Assembly (NCBI GenBank): GCA_015232405.1
Contig: JADFZS010000004.1
Location: 1-64,000, forward strand
DNA: 64,000 nucleotides
Source: Magnetococcales bacterium
Lineage (GTDB): Bacteria; Pseudomonadota; Magnetococcia; Magnetococcales; JADFYX01
Reading direction: 5' to 3'
How positions within the stretch are numbered: position 1 is the first letter of the stretch; each line of letters begins with the position of its first letter. This document shows positions 7,945 through 42,272 of the stretch, piece by piece. The notes beneath the pieces are model-generated. The model had not been told where the DNA came from. It searched no databases and worked only from the letters and a program-made list of their open reading frames with translations. A program made the translations under genes and the position numbers.

Positions 7945-10452
7945 CTACGAACGGTTTTCTTCACTGATTCGCACCCATTTATTGGCCCTGTTTTTACTCA
8001 TTACCAACATGTTGGGCAGGTTTAATTTTGCCTTAAGTGCCTCTTTTGCTCTGTTGGCCTGTTTTATATCGGCAAAAGGGCCGCTATATACTCGCCAGAA
8101 TGATTTACCTTTTACCTTTATATTCTGTTGAAAGCCAACTCCACCCAAAGAAACTATCTTTCGCAACAGATTACCAGAAGAGTCAACACCCACATTTTGG
8201 AATGAACCTACCCTAACAACATATTTTTTGCCAACTTGCGACATGGTAACTTTTTTGTAGTCTCTTTTTATTGCCGATTTATGTTTTTCGTCGCTACGCT
8301 CAATACGAGAATATTTTGTAACTCCTGGCTGTAAATAGGTGACAGAACTATCTATTTTTTGTGCCTCAAACAGAGCTTGCTTAGCCTTTAATGCGCTATC
8401 ACGATTGGCAAAAGGACCAGCATATAGTCTGGTATAAAGAGCATTATTTATATTTACTGTCTGCTTTATCAGATCAAACGGCTCATTTTGTAGATTATTT
8501 GTAATATTTTGTAAATATTCTGCTTTTGACTGTCGATAAGATCCCAAAAATAGAACAAAACCCTTTGGTGAAGAGGTTTTGGCTTGCAGATGTTGTTTAG
8601 GGTTATTTTTAACTAATCTACCTTTTGCTTTAAACATAGGAGCAGGTGTTGCCATAGTTGACAATACCTGCTTTTGGCTTGTTAGTTTTCTTTTTGGTTT
8701 AGGTACTCCCAAACTTATACTGCTAGATTTTCTCAAGGGTTTTGGTGAAACCATGCCACTTGTGACTCTTTGCCTTAGGGGAGCTTTGACTGGTTGAGGG
8801 GCATTAGCCTGAGAAGATCGTTCTACCACTGCATTGGTGGGAATATTTAAAGCCATTTGTACAGGCTCTTCCACAACAATATTTAATGCTGGGGCTGGTT
8901 CTGTTTGTACAGGTTGAGCATCTTCCATTTGAACAGCTGGGGTTTCTACCATCTGAACTACTGGGGCTGGCATATCCCTCACAGGTGAAGTTACCTGAAG
9001 AGGTTTATTGAAAATTGGTGCAGTTTTTATGGTTTTTTCCGCTTTAACAGTTGCAACTTTATTGGTTAAACCGGACTGATATAGCTCAAGTGGATTTTTA
9101 GGCGGCTTAACAACAACCAACAGTTCAGAGTTCTCATTGTCAACCTTTTGATATTTTGCCTCTTTGATATCTCTCTGCTTTTGTAAAACCGCAACCTTGT
9201 TAAGAAACTTTTCCCGCCATGCACTTACCTTCTGTTTTAGATCCTCACGGATTATTTCCACCCCTTCCTGTGCCTCTTCGGGAACAAGTGTTATCTCTTG
9301 CCGGGTTTGTTTGTAAGTATCGCCTAACACATCTGGCTGCACAATATTAACTTTGCTATAATTGGGGGTAAGAGGAATTGTTACCTCACCATGGGTGTTA
9401 TTAACACCTTTAAAACTGTAACCGATAAACAGGGCCACAGGTATTGCAATAATCATCTCCATTGCAGGACGGCGAGATGTTATTATCAAGTTTAATAAAT
9501 ATCTAATTGTTCGCCAGATCGTTGCTAGTAGATTTTTACAACTATTCAAGGTGCGACCGATAAAGCCAATACCACCACACCACAATAAACGTAGACCTGT
9601 TCCCATCAACTCCCCAGAAGATGGATCTTGCTTCATATGTGGTGATAAATCTTCTGACCTGTTATCAGCATATAGATCCTCTTCAATATTGGAAAATTGC
9701 TCTTCTTCTTGAATCTGTTCAACCACCATTTCACTAACAGAGTCATGGCGTATTGGCCTCTCCTTTTCATTCTGCTGGGCAGCTATATTGTTTATAGTAG
9801 CCTGTGGGGCTGGGATATCTTCCTGTTTTGGCTCTGCCACTAAGTTTGCCACCTGACTTTGTTGGATAGCTGCCCCCTCTTCTCCTGCTTGGGCCACTTT
9901 ATTGTTATTAGAAGAGTGTTGAACTGGAACCTCAACCTGCTTTGGTTCTACCACTATATTGGCTACTGGGTTTTGTTGAACTGGAACCTCAACCTGTTTA
10001 GGTTCTGTTACTATATTGGCAACCGGACTGGGTTGAACTGGAGCCTCAACCTGCTTTGGTTCTACCACAATATTGGCAACTGGGTTATGTTGAACTGGAA
10101 CCTCAACCTGTTTAGGTTCTGTCACATAATTGGCAACCGGACTCGGTTGAACTGGAGCCTCAACCTGCTTTGGTTCTGTTAATACATTGGCAACTGGACT
10201 CTGCTCAACCCTATCTTCTTCTGGTTGTGGTTCTACCTCTCTATGAACGGTAGTATCCTGGGTTGCAAGAGTATCATCCATATTGTGATCTGCCACAATA
10301 TTGGCATCCACTATATCATGGGTGGCTTGCTCATCTTCTGTAGAATAGGTAGCACTACCCTCATCAGAAGGTTTTTCATCATCAGCATAACCGACGGTAT
10401 TACTGTGATATTGAATAAGATTTCTTTTCAGTTCCAACAGATCTTCATTCAT
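7945..10452 (-). CDS. Repeat-containing membrane protein with two C-terminal SPOR domains
   Basis: An 835-residue protein. Residues about 1-330 are acidic and cytoplasmic and contain 19-residue tandem repeats of the form PVANxVxEPKQVExPVQ (about 84-216). One TM helix follows (about 331-348), then a long Pro/Val-rich periplasmic linker. Two SPOR domains end the protein: about 640-715 (begins FVLFLGSYRQSKAEY) and about 750-830 (begins KYVVRVGSFQNVG). SPOR domains bind glycan strands stripped of stem peptides, usually at the division septum, so a cell-wall or division role is likely. It is not a standard FtsN or DamX by architecture. It is monocistronic on the minus strand. Confidence 0.8.
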   Translation of the reverse strand: MNEDLLELKRNLIQYHSNTVGYADDEKPSDEGSATYSTEDEQATHDIVDANIVADHNMDDTLATQDTTVHREVEPQPEEDRVEQSPVANVLTEPKQVEAPVQPSPVANYVTEPKQVEVPVQHNPVANIVVEPKQVEAPVQPSPVANIVTEPKQVEVPVQQNPVANIVVEPKQVEVPVQHSSNNNKVAQAGEEGAAIQQSQVANLVAEPKQEDIPAPQATINNIAAQQNEKERPIRHDSVSEMVVEQIQEEEQFSNIEEDLYADNRSEDLSPHMKQDPSSGELMGTGLRLLWCGGIGFIGRTLNSCKNLLATIWRTIRYLLNLIITSRRPAMEMIIAIPVALFIGYSFKGVNNTHGEVTIPLTPNYSKVNIVQPDVLGDTYKQTRQEITLVPEEAQEGVEIIREDLKQKVSAWREKFLNKVAVLQKQRDIKEAKYQKVDNENSELLVVVKPPKNPLELYQSGLTNKVATVKAEKTIKTAPIFNKPLQVTSPVRDMPAPVVQMVETPAVQMEDAQPVQTEPAPALNIVVEEPVQMALNIPTNAVVERSSQANAPQPVKAPLRQRVTSGMVSPKPLRKSSSISLGVPKPKRKLTSQKQVLSTMATPAPMFKAKGRLVKNNPKQHLQAKTSSPKGFVLFLGSYRQSKAEYLQNITNNLQNEPFDLIKQTVNINNALYTRLYAGPFANRDSALKAKQALFEAQKIDSSVTYLQPGVTKYSRIERSDEKHKSAIKRDYKKVTMSQVGKKYVVRVGSFQNVGVDSSGNLLRKIVSLGGVGFQQNIKVKGKSFWRVYSGPFADIKQANRAKEALKAKLNLPNMLVMSKNRANKWVRISEENRS
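9805..10203 (-). repeat. In-frame tandem repeats, 57-bp unit (19 residues)
   Basis: About seven units encode variants of PVANxVxEPKQVExPVQ in the cytoplasmic part of the SPOR protein. Central units are nearly identical in DNA and two alternating subtypes (PSPVAN and HNPVAN) are visible, which suggests recent expansion as doublets. Outer units are degenerate. Confidence 0.85.
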
Positions 10453-10790: not shown

Positions 10791-11495
10791 CTATTTTTCA
10801 TCACCAGAAAGCTGCTGCTTGTAGACTCTCTCAACAACACGTCTAGAGAACTCCGCCCAGAGGCTGCTCATGGCTTTGACTATTGCCGGATAATCATCCT
10901 TAGCAACCTCTTGACCTGTTAAGAATATACTTTCACGAAATAGTATCTTCTTATCCTGGCTATAGAGCATCCAGCGCACAGCTAAGATCGTAATGCCATC
11001 ATGACCCCTTTCAAATTTTTTGATCCGTACAGAAACCCGAAAATTAGGATATCGGCGTTTTTTACTGGGAATTTGATAAATTTTATCAGATTCAAAAAGT
11101 ATAGAGAGATTTTCAACCAGAATGCGGGATAGATTACCCTGAAAATTCTCCCCCCACTTGTTGAACTCAGCAATATCCAGCTCATTGTCTCCGGTTCGTA
11201 CCACTATTTCAGCACGATCCAGATAAGATGGAATCTGCATTGGCTCTACAGCAACACCTATTTCTGTTTTTATCTCCTGTTGAGTTACTGATTGATCATC
11301 TGCATCTGTTTTAGAATCATCTTTTGCGGTTTTAAAAGGTTCACTTGATGAATCAAACCGTTCGATCTTATTTTCTATGGAGAGGGGAGAGAGAATAAAA
11401 TAGCGAGTAGGTGGACTGCTATCGCCAAGCATTCTGGAACAGCCACTCACAGCCAACAACATAATTATCGATCCTATTGCAGTATGCCATTTCAT
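10791..11495 (-). CDS. pqiC: PqiC-like lipoprotein (ABC-type transport auxiliary)
   Basis: A 234-residue lipoprotein with a lipobox (LAVSGC, cysteine at about residue 19), so it is likely anchored to the outer membrane. The body matches the ABC_trans_aux/DUF330 family (TRYFILSPLS near the N-terminus; strands around MQIPSYLDRAEIVVRTGDNELDIAEFN in the middle, shown here in part by position 85-110). In E. coli PqiC forms a ring at the outer membrane that receives the PqiB needle. It begins 3 bp after pqiB, so it belongs to the same operon. A Ser/Asp/Gln-rich insert at about 45-75 is not typical. Confidence 0.82.
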   Translation of the reverse strand: MKWHTAIGSIIMLLAVSGCSRMLGDSSPPTRYFILSPLSIENKIERFDSSSEPFKTAKDDSKTDADDQSVTQQEIKTEIGVAVEPMQIPSYLDRAEIVVRTGDNELDIAEFNKWGENFQGNLSRILVENLSILFESDKIYQIPSKKRRYPNFRVSVRIKKFERGHDGITILAVRWMLYSQDKKILFRESIFLTGQEVAKDDYPAIVKAMSSLWAEFSRRVVERVYKQQLSGDEK

Positions 11496-11498
11496 GAT

Positions 11499-13235
11499 CT
11501 ATCTCTTCTGCTCCCCTTTGCCAAACATCAACGATTCAGGGTTACGACTGATACTATCAATAAATGATCGAAGGGAACGGGAGGTTTCCGTCAACTCTTC
11601 AGACAGCTCCATAACCCGATAGTTCAAGGGAGCATCCGGGCCTACCACATCAATCATAACAGCCATCAACTCTTCACTCCTTGCCAGTGCAATCTTGGCT
11701 GCTTGTGCTGCTTCACCAATTTCAGTACCAACAGGGTCAATTACTCCATCCATTTTAAGTGTAGCATCTCGCACAGCCTGCAAAGCTTCATCCAACGAGC
11801 GTACTGTTGCTAATACCTCCGGGGCATTTATGGTCTTATTAGCCCCTTTGAGGGTTGCAACTAGTTCCTTACTTATCTCATCTAAAGGTATTTTTTGGAT
11901 CTTTGCCAGAAAATTATAGGCAAAAGCACTAATTTCTTCAAAATTACTCGGTACAGTGGGTAGCTCAGGAAAACGTTTATCGCTACCAACCAAAACAATG
12001 GGAGTCTCAGGTTTTAAGATCAAATTTACAAATAGCTGTCCTGTAAGATAGTTGCCAGTCTCAAGTTGAGCACGTAGACCGCGTTCAACCAATGTCTCCA
12101 ACAGCTCATAAGGAGAACCAACGTTTGAAGATTCACCTTTTGAGTTTATCTCCACCACCCGTTCAGGCTCCACCTGTACCAAAACCGCCACCCTAAAGTT
12201 GGTCTTATCACGCTCAAACTCCATTTTAATATCGGTAACAGTACCAATTTTGATACCTCTAAATTCAACAGGAGCACCAGACTTAAGTCCACGAACTGAA
12301 CCGGAAAAATAGAGCAGGAATGGGATTTTTTGACTATAAGAGTTCTCTGTGATGGACAAGCGGTCTTTATGAAGAGGAAATACAGCCTCATTAACTGCTA
12401 ATAGACTCTCCTCTAAAGTCTCAGGCGTTTCAAAGGCCACCCCACCCAAAAGTAGTGATGCCAAGGTGGCTGTCTGTATCCTTACCCCATCGGCTCCGAA
12501 AGAGACATCAATTCCACTAACAGACCAAAAAAGGGTGTTTTCACGAACCATCCAGTGGTAGGGAGATTTAATAAAAACATGTACATGTACTAGATTTTTC
12601 TCTTCTGACAGATCATAACCCAACACCTCACCCACTGGGATACCCCGATAGTAGACCGGGGAGCCTATTGAGAGAGAGCCAAGAGTTGGAGTTGTCAACA
12701 TCAGACGAATACCCTGGGAGTCTGAACGAACTAAAAGTGGTGTCTCCAGACCACGAAACTCTCTTTTTTGCTTACCCGGTTTTCCTGGCTCTAGCTCCAG
12801 ATAGGCACCAGAAACTAAAGTGCCCAGACTTGAAACCCCCTGGAGAGAAAAGCTAGGACGAACAACCCAAAACTGTGCCGATGGTGTGAGATATTTTTCC
12901 ACACCTCTAACCAAACTGGCTTTTAAAGTAACCGAGGTAAAATCTTTGCTTAGAGTAACCTCGTTGATTATGCCTATCGTTACATCTTTATGTTTAATTA
13001 GGGTTTTTCCAGCTTCAATACCTTCAGCAGATTTAAATGTAATGATGATCTCCGGGCCTTGTTCACTATAAGTTTTGTAGGCCAACCAGCCACCTACCAA
13101 AAGAGCAACAATGGGGATAAGCCATATAATAGAGACGCCTCTGGACTTCTCAACCTTGGGGCTGTCAGTCGGTAGAGGAAGCACATCTTGATAATGTTGA
13201 TCGTCGTGCTCTTCCAGTTCATCCAATGTCGTCAT
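11499..13235 (-). CDS. pqiB: PqiB, MCE-domain lipid transport protein
   Basis: About 578 residues, close to E. coli PqiB. A single N-terminal TM helix (about 38-57, IIWLIPIVALLVGGWLAY) is followed by three MCE/MlaD domains (about 62-150, 175-260 and 305-415) and a C-terminal helical region predicted to form a coiled needle. MCE proteins form hexameric tunnels for lipids between the two membranes. The first ATG is at 13244, but ATG at 13235 is better spaced from GGGA; both overlap the end of the upstream pqiA-like gene, so translation is probably coupled. Confidence 0.9.
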   Translation of the reverse strand: MTTLDELEEHDDQHYQDVLPLPTDSPKVEKSRGVSIIWLIPIVALLVGGWLAYKTYSEQGPEIIITFKSAEGIEAGKTLIKHKDVTIGIINEVTLSKDFTSVTLKASLVRGVEKYLTPSAQFWVVRPSFSLQGVSSLGTLVSGAYLELEPGKPGKQKREFRGLETPLLVRSDSQGIRLMLTTPTLGSLSIGSPVYYRGIPVGEVLGYDLSEEKNLVHVHVFIKSPYHWMVRENTLFWSVSGIDVSFGADGVRIQTATLASLLLGGVAFETPETLEESLLAVNEAVFPLHKDRLSITENSYSQKIPFLLYFSGSVRGLKSGAPVEFRGIKIGTVTDIKMEFERDKTNFRVAVLVQVEPERVVEINSKGESSNVGSPYELLETLVERGLRAQLETGNYLTGQLFVNLILKPETPIVLVGSDKRFPELPTVPSNFEEISAFAYNFLAKIQKIPLDEISKELVATLKGANKTINAPEVLATVRSLDEALQAVRDATLKMDGVIDPVGTEIGEAAQAAKIALARSEELMAVMIDVVGPDAPLNYRVMELSEELTETSRSLRSFIDSISRNPESLMFGKGEQKR

Positions 13236-13866
13236 CAATAACATCCCAAATTAAGCGTGGATCAAATGCGCGTGATGCAAACAACGTGACTATAACCACC
13301 GCTCCAAAATATAAAACTCCAATCCCCGGTTCAATGGTCGCTATAAAACCCAAGTCTACCAAAGCTACCAGAATTGAAACCAAAAATACATCTACCATGG
13401 ACCAATGACCAAACAACTCCAAAATCCGATAGAGAGAAGTACGGTCTTTAGGGTGGTTTTTAGATCTGTTTTGTACCGAATAGAGCAGATACATTAAAAC
13501 CAGCAGTTTACCAACAGGTACAATAATACTCGCCACAAAAACAATAAGTGCCAAAGGCCACATACCAGAGTGAATAAGGTGCATGACCCCACTTATAATG
13601 GTATTTGGTTCACCCTGGCCTAATTTGCTAACTGTCATTATGGGATAAATATTTGCAGGAATATAAAGAATCACTGCAGTACAAACCAAAGCCCAGGTTC
13701 GCGAAATACTTTCAACCTTACGGGAGTGGATGGGGGTGTGGCATCTAGTGCAGCTGTTATCATCTTTTAATGTCTCAAGGCTCACAACCAAATGGCAGAC
13801 ATGACATGCTGCCATGCCTGACTTTCGTGCTGAAACTCCCACATAATTTCGTTGTTTGCTAATCAT
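13219..13866 (-). CDS. pqiA: PqiA-like membrane protein, second half
   Basis: A 215-residue protein with an N-terminal zinc-ribbon-like pair of CxxC motifs (CHVC at about 20-23 and CTRC at about 38-41) and four TM helices, i.e. one PqiA domain. E. coli PqiA contains two such domains in one chain; here they are two genes. It overlaps the first PqiA-like gene by 4 bp (ATGA) and pqiB by about 17-26 bp, so the four-gene set should be translated as a unit. PqiA is the inner-membrane partner of PqiB in lipid trafficking. Confidence 0.85.
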   Translation of the reverse strand: MISKQRNYVGVSARKSGMAACHVCHLVVSLETLKDDNSCTRCHTPIHSRKVESISRTWALVCTAVILYIPANIYPIMTVSKLGQGEPNTIISGVMHLIHSGMWPLALIVFVASIIVPVGKLLVLMYLLYSVQNRSKNHPKDRTSLYRILELFGHWSMVDVFLVSILVALVDLGFIATIEPGIGVLYFGAVVIVTLFASRAFDPRLIWDVIDDDIG

Positions 13867-14582
13867 GGACTATCGGGCAGGCTTACGTTATGGCTGCCTT
13901 GTGAGCTATTATCTATCTGTTTGCTATCAACCCCACCATCCGATTTTACTTGTTGTAATCTGTCTGCTGTTTGCCAGATAATACGCGGATTTAGAGTTGT
14001 AACAGCAGCCACTGAAACCAACAGTAACGATACCAAAGCGTAGAGACCCCAGCCTGGAACTACCGTTGCCAAATCACCAAGTTTTACTATAGAAACCAGC
14101 ACACCAAGCATATAGACTCCAATCATACCCCAGGGCAGAAGAGCCAATGTAAATTTAAATATGGGAATAAAATATCGGGGTCGGCGACCTGTTTTTATCG
14201 GAATCAATACATATAATAGCCCGATCATGCTCAAAAGTGGAAACAGAATGGTAGTTAAAAAAACCACAAAGCCAACTGCTCCCAGATCAAACTTTGAGAG
14301 CACGACTGCTCCATAAAAAAGGGTATAGAACTGCTCTTGACCTGCTGCTCTTAAACCCAAAATTGGATAAGCGTTGGCAATAACAAAACAGATCAGAGCT
14401 GCCATGGTAAAAGCTAGAGTGTTATCTATACTATCACCATCACCCTCAGCCAATACAGACCCACAACGGTGACAACGGGCCAGCGTCCGCTCTTCCAAGG
14501 GTGGCAGTTTATATAGATAATCGCACTCATGACAGGCAAGTAGCTCAAAACTGTCTTGTGCATTTTCATTAGAATCTGGCAT
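13863..14582 (-). CDS. pqiA: PqiA-like membrane protein, first half
   Basis: A 239-residue protein and the first gene of the pqi operon. It has two CxxC motifs (CHEC about 17-20, CHRC about 38-41) followed by four TM helices. It corresponds to the N-terminal half of E. coli PqiA, and its paralogue directly follows. The C-terminal 25 residues are polar. The ATG at 14582 lies 268 bp from the divergent fucose-synthase gene, so the operon promoter is in that gap. Confidence 0.85.
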   Translation of the reverse strand: MPDSNENAQDSFELLACHECDYLYKLPPLEERTLARCHRCGSVLAEGDGDSIDNTLAFTMAALICFVIANAYPILGLRAAGQEQFYTLFYGAVVLSKFDLGAVGFVVFLTTILFPLLSMIGLLYVLIPIKTGRRPRYFIPIFKFTLALLPWGMIGVYMLGVLVSIVKLGDLATVVPGWGLYALVSLLLVSVAAVTTLNPRIIWQTADRLQQVKSDGGVDSKQIDNSSQGSHNVSLPDSP

Positions 14583-15796: not shown

Positions 15797-17215
15797 TTAG
15801 AAGGGTGGTTTTACCTTTTTTGCTCCGCCTTTTTTCTGCTCTTTAATATCCTCTAAAACCAGATCCTTCAAGCTTTTTTTGCCCATGGATTGACCGATAA
15901 CATCCTCCACCCTCTCTGCTACCCTTTTTACTGATGGAGGATAGTGGATTCTTTCATCTAGTTGATATATTTGATCCTCGGCCTTGCGAATATCTTTTAG
16001 CACATCTCGAACATGGGTAACATCAAAGGGTCGGTTGGGAATATAGGTAATATCTGATCCATTTTCGCCAATTTTTGCTATTATTTGATTGTTAAATAGC
16101 ATTTCAACTATCTCTGTTACAGTTTCGGTTGGGGCATTTGTTTTACGAACAATATCCTCAATTGATGGTGGCGGGCTGTTTAAATAACTTTTTTGCCCCA
16201 CCTCTACCAATATGGATAGAGCCAATCTCTCCTTAACTCTATTGCTTATTTTGTAAGAATCCCCATCAATTGTAAGATAGCTGTTATTCTGGCAATAAAA
16301 GGTGATATTGGCCCCAATCAAGATTATAAGCCAGTTTAGTTGCAGCCAGATCATAAAGACAATCAAGGTGGCAAATACCGAATAGACAGCCACATAGTTA
16401 ACACTACCTGCAATAAAAGCGGTAAAAAACCAGCTGGTTGTCTCCCATATTATCCCTGAAACAAAACCACCAACCAAAGCACAACCCCAATTTACCCTGG
16501 TGTTGGGTACTATCATGTAAATAAAGGTAAAGGCAATTATAATCAAAATAAACGGCAGCAACTTTGCCCCCACCGCCAAAAACAGCCCAAAGGGTTCTAT
16601 GGTCGCTAGCTGCTGCATATAGCTGCTGATTTTAAAGGAGGCTGTAAGTCCTATTGCGGAAAAAATAAGGATAGGCCCCACAACTATAACACTGAGATAT
16701 TGGCTGAATTTTTGCGAAAAACGCCGAGTATTTTTTACATACCAGATATCATTGAATGACTCTTCAATTTTTTGGATAAGAGAGATAACCGTGTAAAAGA
16801 GCATGAGCAGACCCATGGAACCCAGCACACTGGCATTGATATTATTTACAAACTCTAAAATCCTAAGACGAATGACATCTCCTTGGGGACCAAGGGGAGT
16901 AAGAAAGTCTGCTAACACGGGATCAAGTTTATTATGCACCCCAAAGGCTTTTAAGGTGGAAAAGCTCACCGCCAAAAGAGGAACAAGGGATAACAAAGTT
17001 GTATAAACAAGACTGGTGGCCTGAACTGTCAGTTTTTTTGCTGACATATCCATAAAGACCCGATAGCTGATCCTGATGGTAAGGTTTAAAACCCGCTGCA
17101 ACATAGGCAATGTGGTAGTATCTGAATTCCAAAGCCATTTTTTAAATGCCGATATACTGAATATTCCCAGCATAGAGGCTAAAAATGTACCTATTACTGT
17201 ATTTTGAGAATCCAT
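15797..17215 (-). CDS. YihY/virulence factor BrkB family membrane protein
   Basis: A 472-residue inner-membrane protein. The central part (about 45-320) has six TM helices and typical motifs of the family once called RNase BN: LTVQATSLVYTTLLSLVPLLA, FNDIWYV and SVNYVAVYSVFATLIVFMIWL, each in the expected order. The C-terminal 150 residues are soluble, include a winged-helix-like region (about 330-400) and end in a basic tail. True function is unsettled in the literature; no nuclease role should be assumed. The stop lies 2 bp from the converging fcl stop. Confidence 0.88.
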   Translation of the reverse strand: MDSQNTVIGTFLASMLGIFSISAFKKWLWNSDTTTLPMLQRVLNLTIRISYRVFMDMSAKKLTVQATSLVYTTLLSLVPLLAVSFSTLKAFGVHNKLDPVLADFLTPLGPQGDVIRLRILEFVNNINASVLGSMGLLMLFYTVISLIQKIEESFNDIWYVKNTRRFSQKFSQYLSVIVVGPILIFSAIGLTASFKISSYMQQLATIEPFGLFLAVGAKLLPFILIIIAFTFIYMIVPNTRVNWGCALVGGFVSGIIWETTSWFFTAFIAGSVNYVAVYSVFATLIVFMIWLQLNWLIILIGANITFYCQNNSYLTIDGDSYKISNRVKERLALSILVEVGQKSYLNSPPPSIEDIVRKTNAPTETVTEIVEMLFNNQIIAKIGENGSDITYIPNRPFDVTHVRDVLKDIRKAEDQIYQLDERIHYPPSVKRVAERVEDVIGQSMGKKSLKDLVLEDIKEQKKGGAKKVKPPF

Positions 17216-17287: not shown

Positions 17288-20200
17288 TTAAAAAGAGAAA
17301 GTTACCCGTGGCCCCTTTTTATCATCAACGTTTGGCGGTACTGGCAAACAGGAAAAAATCCTATCCATTGATACTTTTCCTTTGGTAACCAGATAGTTTT
17401 TAACCACTGCTGCTCGCTCTTTAGCCAGAGAGTTCAACTTTTGCGTTATTAAAATATCCTCCGGCTTACTGTTATCAGAAATGACATTTGTAGATGAAAC
17501 AGCTGCCAACATTCCCAGTTTCTTGGCCTCAGCCCCCTTGACCTTAGCCACAAAAGAATCAGTTTTGTAGATTGTTTTAATTGTTCGGGATAGCTTTTTT
17601 GCCTCTTTAGAGGTGGGTAAAACTCCTATTGATACAGCATGCCACGTTATGCCACTCTTACCTTTTAGTTCTCTAATTAATACCTTGTGCCCTCTTTTTT
17701 GCCAAATATCACGTGATTTATTTGCCCGGGCTATTTTTTTAAATGAGGCAACCCGTACCGTATAGAACTTCTCCAACACTCGGCTTTTTGTCACGTCAAC
17801 CTGTTGAGATGGTTGATTATTTGTGGTTTCTGGTGAGCTATCATCTTTTGACTCTTTACCAATTTTGCTGGTTAAGACCAGTTGATCTTTTGGCACCACA
17901 ATACCACAAGCGGTGATACGCTTTTTTTTCTGTTTAGCCAAAAATGTTGCAATTTCATCCAGCACTTTTTTTTCATCTTGGTTGAGAAAGCTACTGCCAG
18001 CCTTGAAATTAACGGGTTTTAAGTTGCTTTGCTGGGCGGAATCTATAGCTGCTGATCCCACCATATCAACAGCAGCAAGGGCCAAACCTACAGGGCCAAG
18101 AGCAACAATTGCAGTAGTTTTAGCTGCTTTTACCGAAACCCCACCAACTACCTTGTTTATCGCCTCACTAAAATCAACATTCGGTTTATCTATAGTACCA
18201 GAAACAGGAATGGCCATTTTAATATCACCATTATTGCTTCTTAAAAGATTGAGAGCGGCATCCATTGGCATAGGAAGTTTTTTGCTTATCTCCTTAGATT
18301 TTAAGCTCTTGGCTGAAACCAGATTAAACATTTTCAAGTTCAGTTTGTTTTTGCCATCAATTTTATTATCAGCAACCTTGGTATCGGTGCTGATGTCCAG
18401 TGTGCCACTTTTTATAAGATAACCAAGTTCAGGAACTACATATGAGGAGTATGGCGGTAAATCAAAGGCGTTAATTGCACCTTTTACAACCAAATCAGGT
18501 GTTTCATTTAACGGTTTGGCACTGCCAGCAAAATCAAATTTGCCATATTCACCTACACCACCAATAATTTTAAAAGCTGTTTCATCCCCTGGTGCTTCAC
18601 TATCTATTGGCCCTATTTCTAATGTATCGATACGCCCATTAACCAAAACTGCCGGTTTTACCCCTTCATCAAACAGGGTAAACGTAAGACCTTTGGGTAG
18701 TGTGAGAGAGCCAAGGCTATATGCAAGAGCACTCTTTGCAGCTTGATCTTCTTGATCACTGGTTTCACCCTGATTATCAAGATCACTTTTTACAGTTTGC
18801 TCTTTAGATTCAGCATTGTCAGGGGGATCTTGTGTTAAACTCTCCTCTTTTGCTTGAGTATCACCTGGCAAGGTTTGATCTAGCTTTTCATTGTTGTCTG
18901 CAACTGCGGTTTTCTTCTCTTCCAAGGTCCAGGGCCATTTACCTGCCAAAGAGCGGTGAATATATACGCTACTATCTGTCACATTTATAGCTTGAAGAGT
19001 CAATCGGCCTTGGGAGCTGTACTGCAACTGTTGAAGATCAATCTCCTCAAGAGCCAATATTGGTTTGTTATTTCCAGTAACCTGGACATTCAACTGGCCT
19101 AGTTTAACCTCTTTAACAGCAACATTTTTATCGACACCAAATTTAAGCTCATCTAACAACAGCCTGTTGAAAGCTAATAGACTATTTTTGTCAGGTGTCA
19201 AAGCAGCAGATCCATTGACCCCGGTTAATAAAATTGAACCATTGCCGCCTTTGGGATTTACACTACCTTTAAATGAAAAATCAGTAAGGGTAACTCCCAC
19301 CGGTTTTTCTCCAGTCATATTAAATGAACCATTTTGGGTTGTCAGCTCACCCTCCACAGTACCAGTTGGGGAAGATGCTTGGGGTAGAGCAGCATATAAT
19401 CCCCCTCTGAAGATAGTTAAGGGCAGTTGTAGTGCTATATTATCCTGGGTTATTTGAAAACCCGCCAACTCAAGAGTACCATTTGCTTTTAAATTGGTAG
19501 TTTGAGTTTTTGAATAAGCGATATCAAGATCAAGGTTTGAAGAAAAACTACCCTGTAAAGAGGGTGGGATAGTGGCTACAAACTGTTTAGGAATTGCCAA
19601 AGAGAATTTGTCTATATCTAAGTGACCGTTGAACTCAACCACTGGAGTAAAAGGGGTTGCCTGACCGTATAAGGCTAAACTCCCTCTATCCAATGCCACA
19701 TCAAGTGCAAGACCTATCTGACTGGCGCTATGCAAAAGACCAGGAGAGCTTAACTGTAACCGCCTAAGAACAATGGTATTATACCTTTTTAACTCCTGTA
19801 TATTAAATGTGAGTTGCGATAGTAAAATTCCTCTAAAGCCAACTCCTAGTTCATCAATTATAAATGGGGCTTCTGCCTCTGGACTGGTGGGGGTTGAATT
19901 GTTGTTACTGGCTTCTTCCTGGCTTTTTGGTAGCTCCACTCCAGCCACCTGCCAATTCCCGCCTTCCAACTCTTTTAACCAGATTCCCCCTTTATGAAGG
20001 AGAATACGATCAACAATAATCTGTTGTTTTATTAGACTTCTTAAAGATATATCAACAGCCAACTTAGACATTTGCAAAACTGGCTCATCTTTTTGCAAAA
20101 ACTCCAAACCGATCAACTCAACCCTACCTTCAAGAGGTTTGATCTTACCCTCTTGCAAGCGAACCTCTAGACCCGGAAGCCCCTTTTCAAGTCCCCAAAC

Positions 20201-20317
20201 CATCCAGGTTGTTGCTGTGTACAAAACCCCAGCAATTGACAGTGCAATAAAAACTATTAAATAAACCAGAAATTTGCCAAAACCGGATTTTGGCTTTTCA
20301 TCCAATAAATATTCCAC
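17288..20317 (-). CDS. DUF748 (AsmA-like) protein with an OmpA-like tail interrupted by a SPOR domain
   Basis: A 1009-residue protein. An N-terminal TM helix (about 17-36) is followed by a long beta-rich DUF748 region with AsmA-like repeats (about 40-760), broken by an acidic Gln/Glu/Asp-rich linker (about 465-525). The C-terminus of DUF748 proteins is usually an OmpA-like segment. Here its first half (LNQDEKKVLDEIATFLAKQ, about 779-797) and second half (LAKERAAVVKNYL, about 963-975) are separated by a SPOR domain (about 847-926, FYTVRVASFKKI). AsmA-like proteins probably bridge the envelope to move lipids. The OmpA-like and SPOR parts suggest attachment to peptidoglycan. Confidence 0.82.
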   Translation of the reverse strand: MEYLLDEKPKSGFGKFLVYLIVFIALSIAGVLYTATTWMVWGLEKGLPGLEVRLQEGKIKPLEGRVELIGLEFLQKDEPVLQMSKLAVDISLRSLIKQQIIVDRILLHKGGIWLKELEGGNWQVAGVELPKSQEEASNNNSTPTSPEAEAPFIIDELGVGFRGILLSQLTFNIQELKRYNTIVLRRLQLSSPGLLHSASQIGLALDVALDRGSLALYGQATPFTPVVEFNGHLDIDKFSLAIPKQFVATIPPSLQGSFSSNLDLDIAYSKTQTTNLKANGTLELAGFQITQDNIALQLPLTIFRGGLYAALPQASSPTGTVEGELTTQNGSFNMTGEKPVGVTLTDFSFKGSVNPKGGNGSILLTGVNGSAALTPDKNSLLAFNRLLLDELKFGVDKNVAVKEVKLGQLNVQVTGNNKPILALEEIDLQQLQYSSQGRLTLQAINVTDSSVYIHRSLAGKWPWTLEEKKTAVADNNEKLDQTLPGDTQAKEESLTQDPPDNAESKEQTVKSDLDNQGETSDQEDQAAKSALAYSLGSLTLPKGLTFTLFDEGVKPAVLVNGRIDTLEIGPIDSEAPGDETAFKIIGGVGEYGKFDFAGSAKPLNETPDLVVKGAINAFDLPPYSSYVVPELGYLIKSGTLDISTDTKVADNKIDGKNKLNLKMFNLVSAKSLKSKEISKKLPMPMDAALNLLRSNNGDIKMAIPVSGTIDKPNVDFSEAINKVVGGVSVKAAKTTAIVALGPVGLALAAVDMVGSAAIDSAQQSNLKPVNFKAGSSFLNQDEKKVLDEIATFLAKQKKKRITACGIVVPKDQLVLTSKIGKESKDDSSPETTNNQPSQQVDVTKSRVLEKFYTVRVASFKKIARANKSRDIWQKRGHKVLIRELKGKSGITWHAVSIGVLPTSKEAKKLSRTIKTIYKTDSFVAKVKGAEAKKLGMLAAVSSTNVISDNSKPEDILITQKLNSLAKERAAVVKNYLVTKGKVSMDRIFSCLPVPPNVDDKKGPRVTFSF

Positions 20318-20804
20318 AAATATATCCTTATTTAACCAAACCTTTACTTAAAAACTTCTTTTTGGCTGTTCTTAAGAATTTAACAGTAACATGTTTATAG
20401 CATCTTTCTTTTATAAGCTACTGTTGCTACTAAGTTTTTCATATATATGTAACCAAAGATAAATACAAACACGACCAAACAGATGCTGAAGCCATATTTA
20501 CACCAAATATAACAACATGTTACGCTATATACAGCAGATCAGATCGAGCTAATGGTTTTTAAGTGTAATTAATGAACTAAAAATTGTATATAGTTAAAAC
20601 CAAAGAGGATTATTTAATCAGTTAACAGATTAATCAACAAACCCTATCCAAACCAATCGACTTATCAAACCCACAGAGTGGCAAAAAATTAACAAAAAAT
20701 CAAACTGATATTAATTAAATTTAACTCACACAATGTTAATTTTATGATGTATACTGGATTAGCAAATATATTGTGTTGAACACAGAGATTTGGGGGCAGA
20801 GGTG
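20318..20804. other. AT-rich intergenic region
   Basis: About 490 bp without a credible gene between divergent genes. A TATACT hexamer at about 20750-20755 could be the -10 box for the TonB receptor remnant, without a clear -35. I see no iron box or strong hairpin. Confidence 0.5.
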
Positions 20805-22095
20805 ATGAACAAACTGAAAACAGGTTGGTTCATGACGTTGGGGCTTATTATTTATCTCTGTTGTCCAGGATATGCTACAGCTGATAACACAGCAGTAGAT
20901 GAGGTTGATTTTTTTGACCTATCCATCGAAGAACTTTCTGAAATAACCATAACCGCTGCCTCAGAATTTACTGAAACACCATTGAGCGTTGCCTCAAGCG
21001 TATCAACGATACAGGAAAAAGATTGGCAAAAATATGGGGCCAGACGTAGTAACGATGCTCTATCCCACCTACCAGGAGTTGATTTTGTCTCCATAATTGA
21101 GGGTAGCCAGGCCATCCGAATTCGGGGGTATAGCTCTGTGGCTCCGAGGGGTCACGCCTATCTTTTGGACGGTGTTCCTATTAACTCATTCGCATTTAAT
21201 ACCAGTAGTTACAACATGAACAACGCTGGTATTTATGGGCTGCAAAATATCGAATTGATCAGGGGTCCGGTTGCTGTTCAGTACGGCACTGACGCTTTTC
21301 ACGGTGCAGTTGCCATGCAGAGCTATGGGGCAGACAGTCCTGAGACCAGGATTCATACCGCTGTTGCTTCTAACAATATGGCAACTTTAAATCTGCGCCA
21401 TACCAGCGATTTTAACAACCATATCATGAATGTATCGTTACAGTCATTAAAACAGGGAGATCAAGAACAGTCCTATTCATGGACAGACTCTTCTGCCAAC
21501 CTTTCCGGAACAGGTAGTTGGGAAAACAAAGAAGAGTTTTTTATGGGTATGGTTAAATTACGCTCTCAGATTGATTCGGGCTGGTATTATGATGTTGGGC
21601 TATATTTAAAAGAGGAGGAGTTGGATAATTTTCCCGGTTACGGCAATTTTTTCGGTACATCATTAAGGGATAGAGATCTATTTTCCAACCATAATAATTT
21701 ACAGATGGTCAGAGCAAAGGTGGGACACCATCTAGATAATGATATTGATATGGAGGTGGAGGGTTTTCACTGGCGATCTGGCATTCGTGATCACCGCTGG
21801 CGACAATACAGCGATCAACGTCAGTGGAGCAAAGATGAGTTTCGTAGCGGTATTAATTTAACGGTTAAACAAGAGGATAACCCGTTAAATACCCGCTGGT
21901 CCCTAGCGCTACCTTGATACTTTTTGGCAAACAGATCTACACGCCTCTTATCTTCATAACGAAAAATACAACTTTAGCCTTGATATCCGTAATCTGTTTG
22001 ATCGTGACAATGTACAGCCAAGTGTTTTTCTTACCCAAGATGGCCTACCTGGAGAACCTCTTTCGGTGATGCTATCTCTTAGGATGGATCTGTAG
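20805..22095 (+). pseudogene. TonB-dependent receptor, internally deleted and frameshifted
   Basis: ATG at 20805 (purine-rich AGAGGTG upstream) starts a receptor with a signal peptide, a TonB-box-like stretch (SEITITAAS) and a good plug domain (IRIRGYSSVAPRGH, LLDGVPIN, IELIRGPVAVQYGTDAFHGA). The frame ends at 21917. Directly after, in the +1 frame from 21916, come the last strands of a receptor barrel (YNFSLDIRNLFDRDNVQPS and LSVMLSLRMDL) ending at 22095. Total coding material is about 430 residues against 600-750 for intact receptors, so the middle of the barrel is missing and the ends are out of frame. The substrate class is unknown. Confidence 0.88.
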
Positions 22096-41186: not shown

Positions 41187-42272
41187 TTATCGCTTAGAAG
41201 GTTTAATCAGACGGCCTTCCATACCAATTTTTTCTTTAATCAGTCGCCCTGCCTTTTCGGCCTTGGTTCTTGTGGAAAAAGGCCCCAAACGAACCCGGTA
41301 GTACGTCTTGGACCGGATATTGGCAGTCTCCTGATAAACTGGCATTCTCTTACCGTTGAACATAACAGAGCGTAGCTTGCTTTGCAACGCCCTGGACCGT
41401 TCAGCATTGGATAAGGAGGCTATCTGCATGGAGTAACCATTTTTTGGGGTTACACTACCACTGGGCTCAACAGCTCTTGCTGGCTCTTTTTTCGCAACTG
41501 GTTTTACACTGTTTAGCTGTTTTTTGGCTACATACTGTTTCGGCTGCTGATTTTGTTGCGCCTTTTTTTGTTTAGCTAAAGCGTCAGCTATAGCTTTGCT
41601 GAAATCTATATTTGTCGGTGGCAACTCTTTTGCCCTATTGGTCACAGGCTGCTGTTTTGCTGCTTTACTTCTCTCCAATGCCCTTTTACTTGCTAGCTCA
41701 GCCTCTCTTATCCTTCTGGCAGCTTCCTGTTTTGCCTCCTGGGCTTTTTTCAATTTTTCGGCATTGGCCTGTTTTAATTTATCCGCTTCGGCTTTTTTCT
41801 TTTTGGCCTCAGCCAGTTTTCTTGCCTCTTCCTTTTTAAAGGCCACCTCTTTACGAACCGCCTCTAGTTCAGCTGGAGAACGGTTCCACCCACCTTGCAA
41901 CTCCTCATCAGGAGTTTGACCACCTAGAACATGTCCCTCCTCAGGGGGAGCCTCTGCATTTTGTTGCTCTTTTGTAGGCAGACTCTCTCCAGGTTTAAGA
42001 ACAGTACGATTGTTTAATTTTTCATAATTAAGTTCATCGTTGACATGGTTACTAAACACCGCAGCTGTTCCAGACAACCCCTTATTCTGATATCTATCTG
42101 AACGCCCCATTCTGTCGGTCAATTTGACCATGGGCCGTTTTGCCACATCCTCTTCGACCAGATCTGATGGAGAGCTGACCATATTGAAGATGACAACAAC
42201 GAGTATCAACAGAAGGATGACACCGCCAGTTATCAAAAAAAGTTGCTGTTCTCTGTTGGGTGAAGCTTTCAT
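41187..42272 (-). CDS. Single-SPOR membrane protein
   Basis: A 361-residue bitopic protein: short cytoplasmic start, TM helix (about 11-32, FLITGGVILLLILVVVIFN), a long Lys/Ala/Glu-rich helical linker (about 130-220), and a C-terminal SPOR domain (about 282-358, GYSMQIASLSNAERSRALQS). This architecture resembles FtsN and DedD-type division proteins, but no specific FtsN motif is visible. It probably binds septal peptidoglycan. It is the third SPOR protein of the window and is divergent from the gcvR-like gene (66-bp promoter gap). Confidence 0.82.
   Translation of the reverse strand: MKASPNREQQLFLITGGVILLLILVVVIFNMVSSPSDLVEEDVAKRPMVKLTDRMGRSDRYQNKGLSGTAAVFSNHVNDELNYEKLNNRTVLKPGESLPTKEQQNAEAPPEEGHVLGGQTPDEELQGGWNRSPAELEAVRKEVAFKKEEARKLAEAKKKKAEADKLKQANAEKLKKAQEAKQEAARRIREAELASKRALERSKAAKQQPVTNRAKELPPTNIDFSKAIADALAKQKKAQQNQQPKQYVAKKQLNSVKPVAKKEPARAVEPSGSVTPKNGYSMQIASLSNAERSRALQSKLRSVMFNGKRMPVYQETANIRSKTYYRVRLGPFSTRTKAEKAGRLIKEKIGMEGRLIKPSKR

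Follow-up and report, generated by a model that had tools for sequence, protein, structure and literature searches.

The window analyzed here, a 64,000-nucleotide stretch of DNA from a Magnetococcales bacterium, encodes on its reverse strand a 1,009-aa DUF748 protein of the AsmA-like, EpaF type (positions 17288 to 20317, with a GTG start codon), an assignment supported by the ORF, by Pfam profiles, and by orthologs in five of five members of the genus. Unless stated otherwise, all features described below lie on this strand. Pfam searches recovered the DUF748 domain with strong significance (E = 1.6e-43; 149.4 bits against a gathering cutoff of 50), with the best stretch spanning residues 404 to 987 and reaching the end of the model, and additionally retrieved a SPOR domain at residues 850 to 914 (E = 6.9e-5; 23.5 bits against a cutoff of 21). 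A match to the OmpA domain (PF00691) in this interrupted protein covers residues 963 to 988 and, at 23.8 bits, falls below the cutoff of 27.2; a search of the protein against NCBIfam returned nothing useful. Hydrophobicity and helix H13-46 of a low-confidence full-length model predict an N-terminal transmembrane anchor at residues ~12 to 37 (20207 to 20284). This is followed by the AsmA/DUF748 periplasmic region (residues ~40 to 760; 18038 to 20200), which is delineated by the DUF748 profile, weak T2SSN matches, and a conserved core in the genus alignment and which, by analogy with the family, would form a lipid groove. The full-length AlphaFold model, built from five sequences, predicts a hydrophobic helix and a beta-rich structure, with an overall pLDDT of 42, which is too low for it to be used as evidence for the groove, and we dropped it for that purpose.

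The C-terminal tail has a nested architecture. The first half of an OmpA-like module (residues 766 to 813; 17879 to 18022), defined by alignments, the tail model, and a profile, comprises a beta-alpha-beta unit with C804. A poorly conserved linker predicted to be partly disordered (residues 814 to 848; 17774 to 17878; pLDDT <50 for tail residues 72 to 97) leads into the SPOR domain (residues 849 to 928; 17534 to 17773), and a second linker (residues 929 to 951; 17465 to 17533; pLDDT <50 for tail residues 178 to 199) leads out of it into the second, alpha-beta-beta half of the module (residues 952 to 1009; 17291 to 17464), which bears R968 and C990 and is supported by Pfam, the tail model, the homolog alignment, and the profile. 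A first-pass annotation of this DNA had proposed that a linker and a SPOR domain are flanked by two OmpA-like halves, and its coordinates proved right, with the nested part extending over residues ~766 to 1009.

The genes described next lie downstream on the same strand and include a putative lipid-transport system. The first encodes a YihY/BrkB family inner-membrane protein (15797 to 17215; Pfam E = 1.9e-51); the YihY/YhjD family has been connected with the export of lipids through that membrane. Pfam matches and synteny then identify two copies of PqiA (13863 to 14582 and 13219 to 13866), PqiB, an MCE protein with three MlaD domains (11499 to 13244), and a PqiC-type lipoprotein with an ABC_trans_aux domain (10791 to 11495; E = 3.1e-34). 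Beside pqiC lies a gene for an 835-aa membrane protein with two C-terminal SPOR domains (7945 to 10452; two Pfam stretches), relatives of which occupy the same place in genomes L032 and L033. Four genomes of the genus out of five (the window, L032, L033, and L035) share the gene order DUF748-YihY-PqiA-PqiA-PqiB-PqiC, their DUF748 proteins being 44 to 66% identical, and YihY adjoins the DUF748 gene in each of the other three as well. An fcl gene on the opposite strand separates YihY from pqiA in the window, L032, and L033; in L035 the gap is 10 bases, with no matching ORF in between. The remaining genus member, L034, lacks the pqi cluster beside its DUF748 gene, and we rejected this neighborhood as a general trait of DUF748 proteins, as it was not seen near the gene in the SPOR-free relatives examined. 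The tandem pqiA pair (13219 to 14582) is itself conserved in the genus, as compared with the single PqiA protein of E. coli. We also observed a 375-aa ORF on the forward strand (20790 to 21917) for a TonB-dependent receptor, which holds only the plug domain and is probably truncated or frameshifted. Pqi is described as a putative phospholipid transport system (PMC10897342). The conserved PqiABC/YihY cluster strengthens the lipid-transport side of the first-pass annotation.

The SPOR domain and the OmpA-like module

A model of the tail, again predicted from five sequences (pTM 0.43), has a pLDDT of 80 to 90 across the SPOR domain and of 65 to 83 in the greater part of the OmpA halves, with values <50 along much of the linkers. 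Foldseek searches with this model retrieved the SPOR domain of CwlC first, followed by those of DamX, DedD, and RlpA, with the CwlC match alone passing an E value of 0.001. The SPOR profile is recovered together with the expected beta-alpha-beta-beta-alpha-beta fold, and the best ortholog scores an E value of 7e-8. Given that the match recurs in all five genus members and in none of the 70 other DUF748 tails and that the fold matches known SPOR structures, it exceeds what chance would yield. The genus alignment, compared with the published SPOR contacts, places Arg855 (17753 to 17755) where the glycan-contacting Gln of the family resides (RlpA Q270, DamX Q351), and all five genus orthologs have Arg at this position (PMC6895207). 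The RlpA residue is the most conserved contact of SPOR domains to denuded glycan, and backbone atoms supply many of the other contacts (PMC6895207). The VRVASF pattern of beta-strand 1 is retained, as is Phe859, the equivalent of RlpA F274. We ruled out Arg855 as a unique loss because other SPOR domains of the same genome have Lys, Ser, Leu, or Arg at the Gln position, and this variability makes Arg855 compatible with membership in the SPOR family. Trp892 is presumably the kept equivalent of FtsN W283, and we take Ala894 to be a replacement at the equivalent of FtsN R285. The genome also encodes two Amidase_3 proteins, a possible source of denuded glycan.

That the segments flanking the SPOR domain form one OmpA-like fold, as the first-pass annotation had supposed, is favored by several observations. 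A profile built from 18 relatives with inserts of only ~11 to 20 residues matches OmpA-family PDB chains across both halves (best E = 1.6e-6), and an OmpA match with E up to 0.1 is found in 57 of the 75 DUF748 homologs that we compared. The tail model displays the expected order of elements, alpha-beta-[insert with SPOR]-alpha-beta-beta. Further, C804 and C990 lie in different halves and occur only together: 41 of the 75 homologs have both, 34 have neither, and none has a single one; the two may form a disulfide. As the pattern rests on just two changes on the tree, we downgraded this covariation from strong proof of a single fold to support. On the DUF748 tree, the Cys pair is confined to one of the two halves. 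The alternative, that two unrelated conserved segments happen to surround the SPOR domain, could appeal to the subthreshold OmpA match, which is confined to the second half, and to the low pTM of the tail, but the alignment of short-insert relatives to OmpA structures via both halves, the Cys pair that is never single, and the order of elements in the model render it very improbable. Among the 50 Foldseek matches listed for the tail there was no OmpA match, the credible ones being of the SPOR type only, as is expected for an interrupted domain.

The first-pass annotation went further, suggesting that the OmpA-like and SPOR domains both bind peptidoglycan, in two different modes. The binding of diaminopimelate by Acinetobacter baumannii OmpA needs D271 and R286 (PMC6572160). 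The conserved OmpA Arg, R968 in our protein, is kept in 74 of the 75 homologs, and one genus member, L009, also has an Asp at the second position, both of which would favor such binding. The equivalent of D271, however, is V808, with Val in the window protein and in all but one of its four genus relatives and Asp in just 14 of the 75 homologs, and the NxxLS stretch that precedes the OmpA Arg is replaced by the insert. As the SPOR Gln is Arg in all five genus members and the OmpA Asp is Val in four of them, two-mode binding is unsupported, and we consider it quite improbable.

Distribution and origin of the nested SPOR domain

The first-pass annotation had called for a survey of DUF748 proteins for SPOR insertions. 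We scanned with Pfam 75 DUF748 tails, those of the five genus members and 70 others from the same phylum; DUF748 was matched in all 75, and SPOR in exactly the five from the genus (0 of the 70 others). Profile searches of overlapping draws of 398, 369, and 385 genomes, covering the phylum and two classes, likewise gave matches running through the SPOR domain only in genus members, all others stopping before it; a strongly diverged SPOR domain would escape such searches, and we therefore place more weight on the Pfam scan. In all five members the alignment shows the identical order of OmpA half 1, linker, SPOR, linker, and OmpA half 2. Pairwise identity within the genus is 51% and 63% in the two OmpA halves and 53% in the SPOR domain, whereas it falls to 19% and 10% in the two linkers, which argues that the SPOR domain is maintained. 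An insert at the nested point is found in other DUF748 proteins too, with a length of 0 to 137 residues against 149 to 213 in the genus. DUF748 proteins in general have an OmpA-like tail that carries an insert here, and the SPOR content alone is peculiar to the genus.

The genus forms a single branch with 100/100 support, and its nearest relatives in the order Magnetococcales (L011 and L012) are without SPOR; the orthologs L032 to L035 are themselves Magnetococcales MAGs. The simplest history is that the SPOR domain was gained once, into an already variable loop. Donors would have been at hand, as the genomes of this order are rich in SPOR matches, with 22 in the present genome and 6 to 29 per genome across 48 Magnetococcales genomes. 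This in itself points to an expansion of SPOR domains in the order, compared with the four SPOR proteins of E. coli (PMC6895207). A further instance in the window is a 361-aa single-SPOR protein (41187 to 42272) adjoining ABC transporter genes.

The combination of DUF748, an OmpA-like module, and a nested SPOR domain is a true and conserved one and is so far undescribed: consistent with the first-pass annotation, which knew of no described case, the literature that we searched contained none of a SPOR domain nested in DUF748, and none on DUF748 combined with OmpA or on SPOR combined with OmpA-like domains. On SPOR and AsmA, the one relevant paper was a study of E. coli YhdP and DedD (PMC12977461).

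Predicted function of the fusion protein

EpaF (PA4735; PF05359), YhdP, TamB, and YdbH form a redundantly essential set in Pseudomonas aeruginosa (PMC10900882), and it is on this family evidence that we label the Magnetococcales protein a lipid bridge. Together with the genomic setting, it makes this part of the reading well grounded, with groove-based phospholipid transfer being attributed by analogy with the family. Anchored in the inner membrane, the protein would project into the periplasm and form a groove that conducts lipids. Where other DUF748 proteins carry only a variable loop, its OmpA-like module presents a SPOR domain flanked by a flexible linker on either side. SPOR domains ordinarily attach to the wall at the site of division, and this one would most likely face the wall as a tether, keeping or enriching the bridge at places with exposed glycan strands; growing or dividing wall is a probable site, and the YihY and PqiABC proteins encoded nearby would act alongside. 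That the domain positions the EpaF-type bridge at the cell wall is our leading reading, to which we would give about an even chance; the copurification of E. coli YhdP with DedD (PMC12977461) speaks for it. A narrower version, in which the domain places inter-membrane phospholipid transport and PqiABC at denuded peptidoglycan, that is, at the division site or new poles, is offered more tentatively, as a possibility that we rate as somewhat doubtful; binding to the wall, the cellular location, any septal role, and cooperation with PqiABC are all predictions. Several observations run against the leading reading, namely the replacement of Gln by Arg855, the Ala894 at the presumed FtsN R285 position, the absence of the pqi cluster beside the gene in L034, and the low pLDDT of the full-length model. 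A septal tether in particular would have to contend with E. coli YhdP, which is enriched at the poles rather than at the septum and localizes independently of DedD (PMC12977461).

Those same altered glycan residues could instead mean that the SPOR domain serves for docking to other proteins and fastens the bridge to one of them, for instance PqiC, YihY, or the double-SPOR neighbor. The presence of the double-SPOR protein and PqiABC in the adjoining cluster and the direct contact of E. coli YhdP with DedD (PMC12977461) would fit such a role. Yet the fold and the VRVASF strand are kept, many contacts of SPOR domains to glycan are made by the backbone (PMC6895207), and the basic Arg855 could still meet the lactyl carboxylate, so that we regard docking as rather unlikely, if conceivable. 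A further explanation is that the SPOR domain entered a loop of DUF748 proteins that accepts inserts and adds little to function. The range of insert lengths in SPOR-free relatives and the abundance of donors in the order make such an event easy to envisage, but the retention of the domain in all five members, at an identity far above that of the linkers, makes it unlikely. The narrower version given above, with transport placed at denuded peptidoglycan, would mean, if true, that a single protein couples the supply of the outer membrane to the remodeling of the wall. The fusion itself suggests, short of proof, that the building of membranes is physically connected with the cell wall. It bears on the cellular site at which AsmA-like lipid bridges act and on the way in which they pass or use the wall. 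The 2026 report of YhdP bound to a SPOR protein left the reason unexplained (PMC12977461), and a natural fusion of bridge and SPOR makes the question testable via a single construct.

Comparison with known systems

The protein belongs to the same Pfam family as the AsmA-like EpaF/PA4735, the member with genetic evidence for a role in outer-membrane lipid homeostasis (PMC10900882), and differs from the 70 other DUF748 tails scanned in its SPOR domain and from the SPOR-free relatives examined in its pqi cluster. Its tail shares with the C-terminal domain of OmpA, Pal, and MotB the same fold, as seen in the sequence profile, the order of elements, and the conserved Arg, and is set apart by the missing diaminopimelate-site Asp, the 149- to 213-residue insert, and the Cys pair. 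The SPOR fold is common to it and DamX, DedD, FtsN, and RlpA, in which a disordered tether usually connects the domain, as a unit of its own, to a membrane anchor (PMC6895207); in contrast, it is here inserted within another domain, and its hallmark Gln is Arg. A Pfam search of the genome did not find TamB (PF04357), and a YhdP-like protein is present. The closest published link to the fusion of SPOR and AsmA domains is indeed that of E. coli YhdP, a lipid bridge of the AsmA superfamily that copurifies with the SPOR protein DedD (PMC12977461). As here, a bridge is physically linked to a SPOR domain, but YhdP belongs to a different AsmA subfamily and the link is formed in trans by two proteins, whereas in the Magnetococcales protein the SPOR domain is built into the bridge itself.
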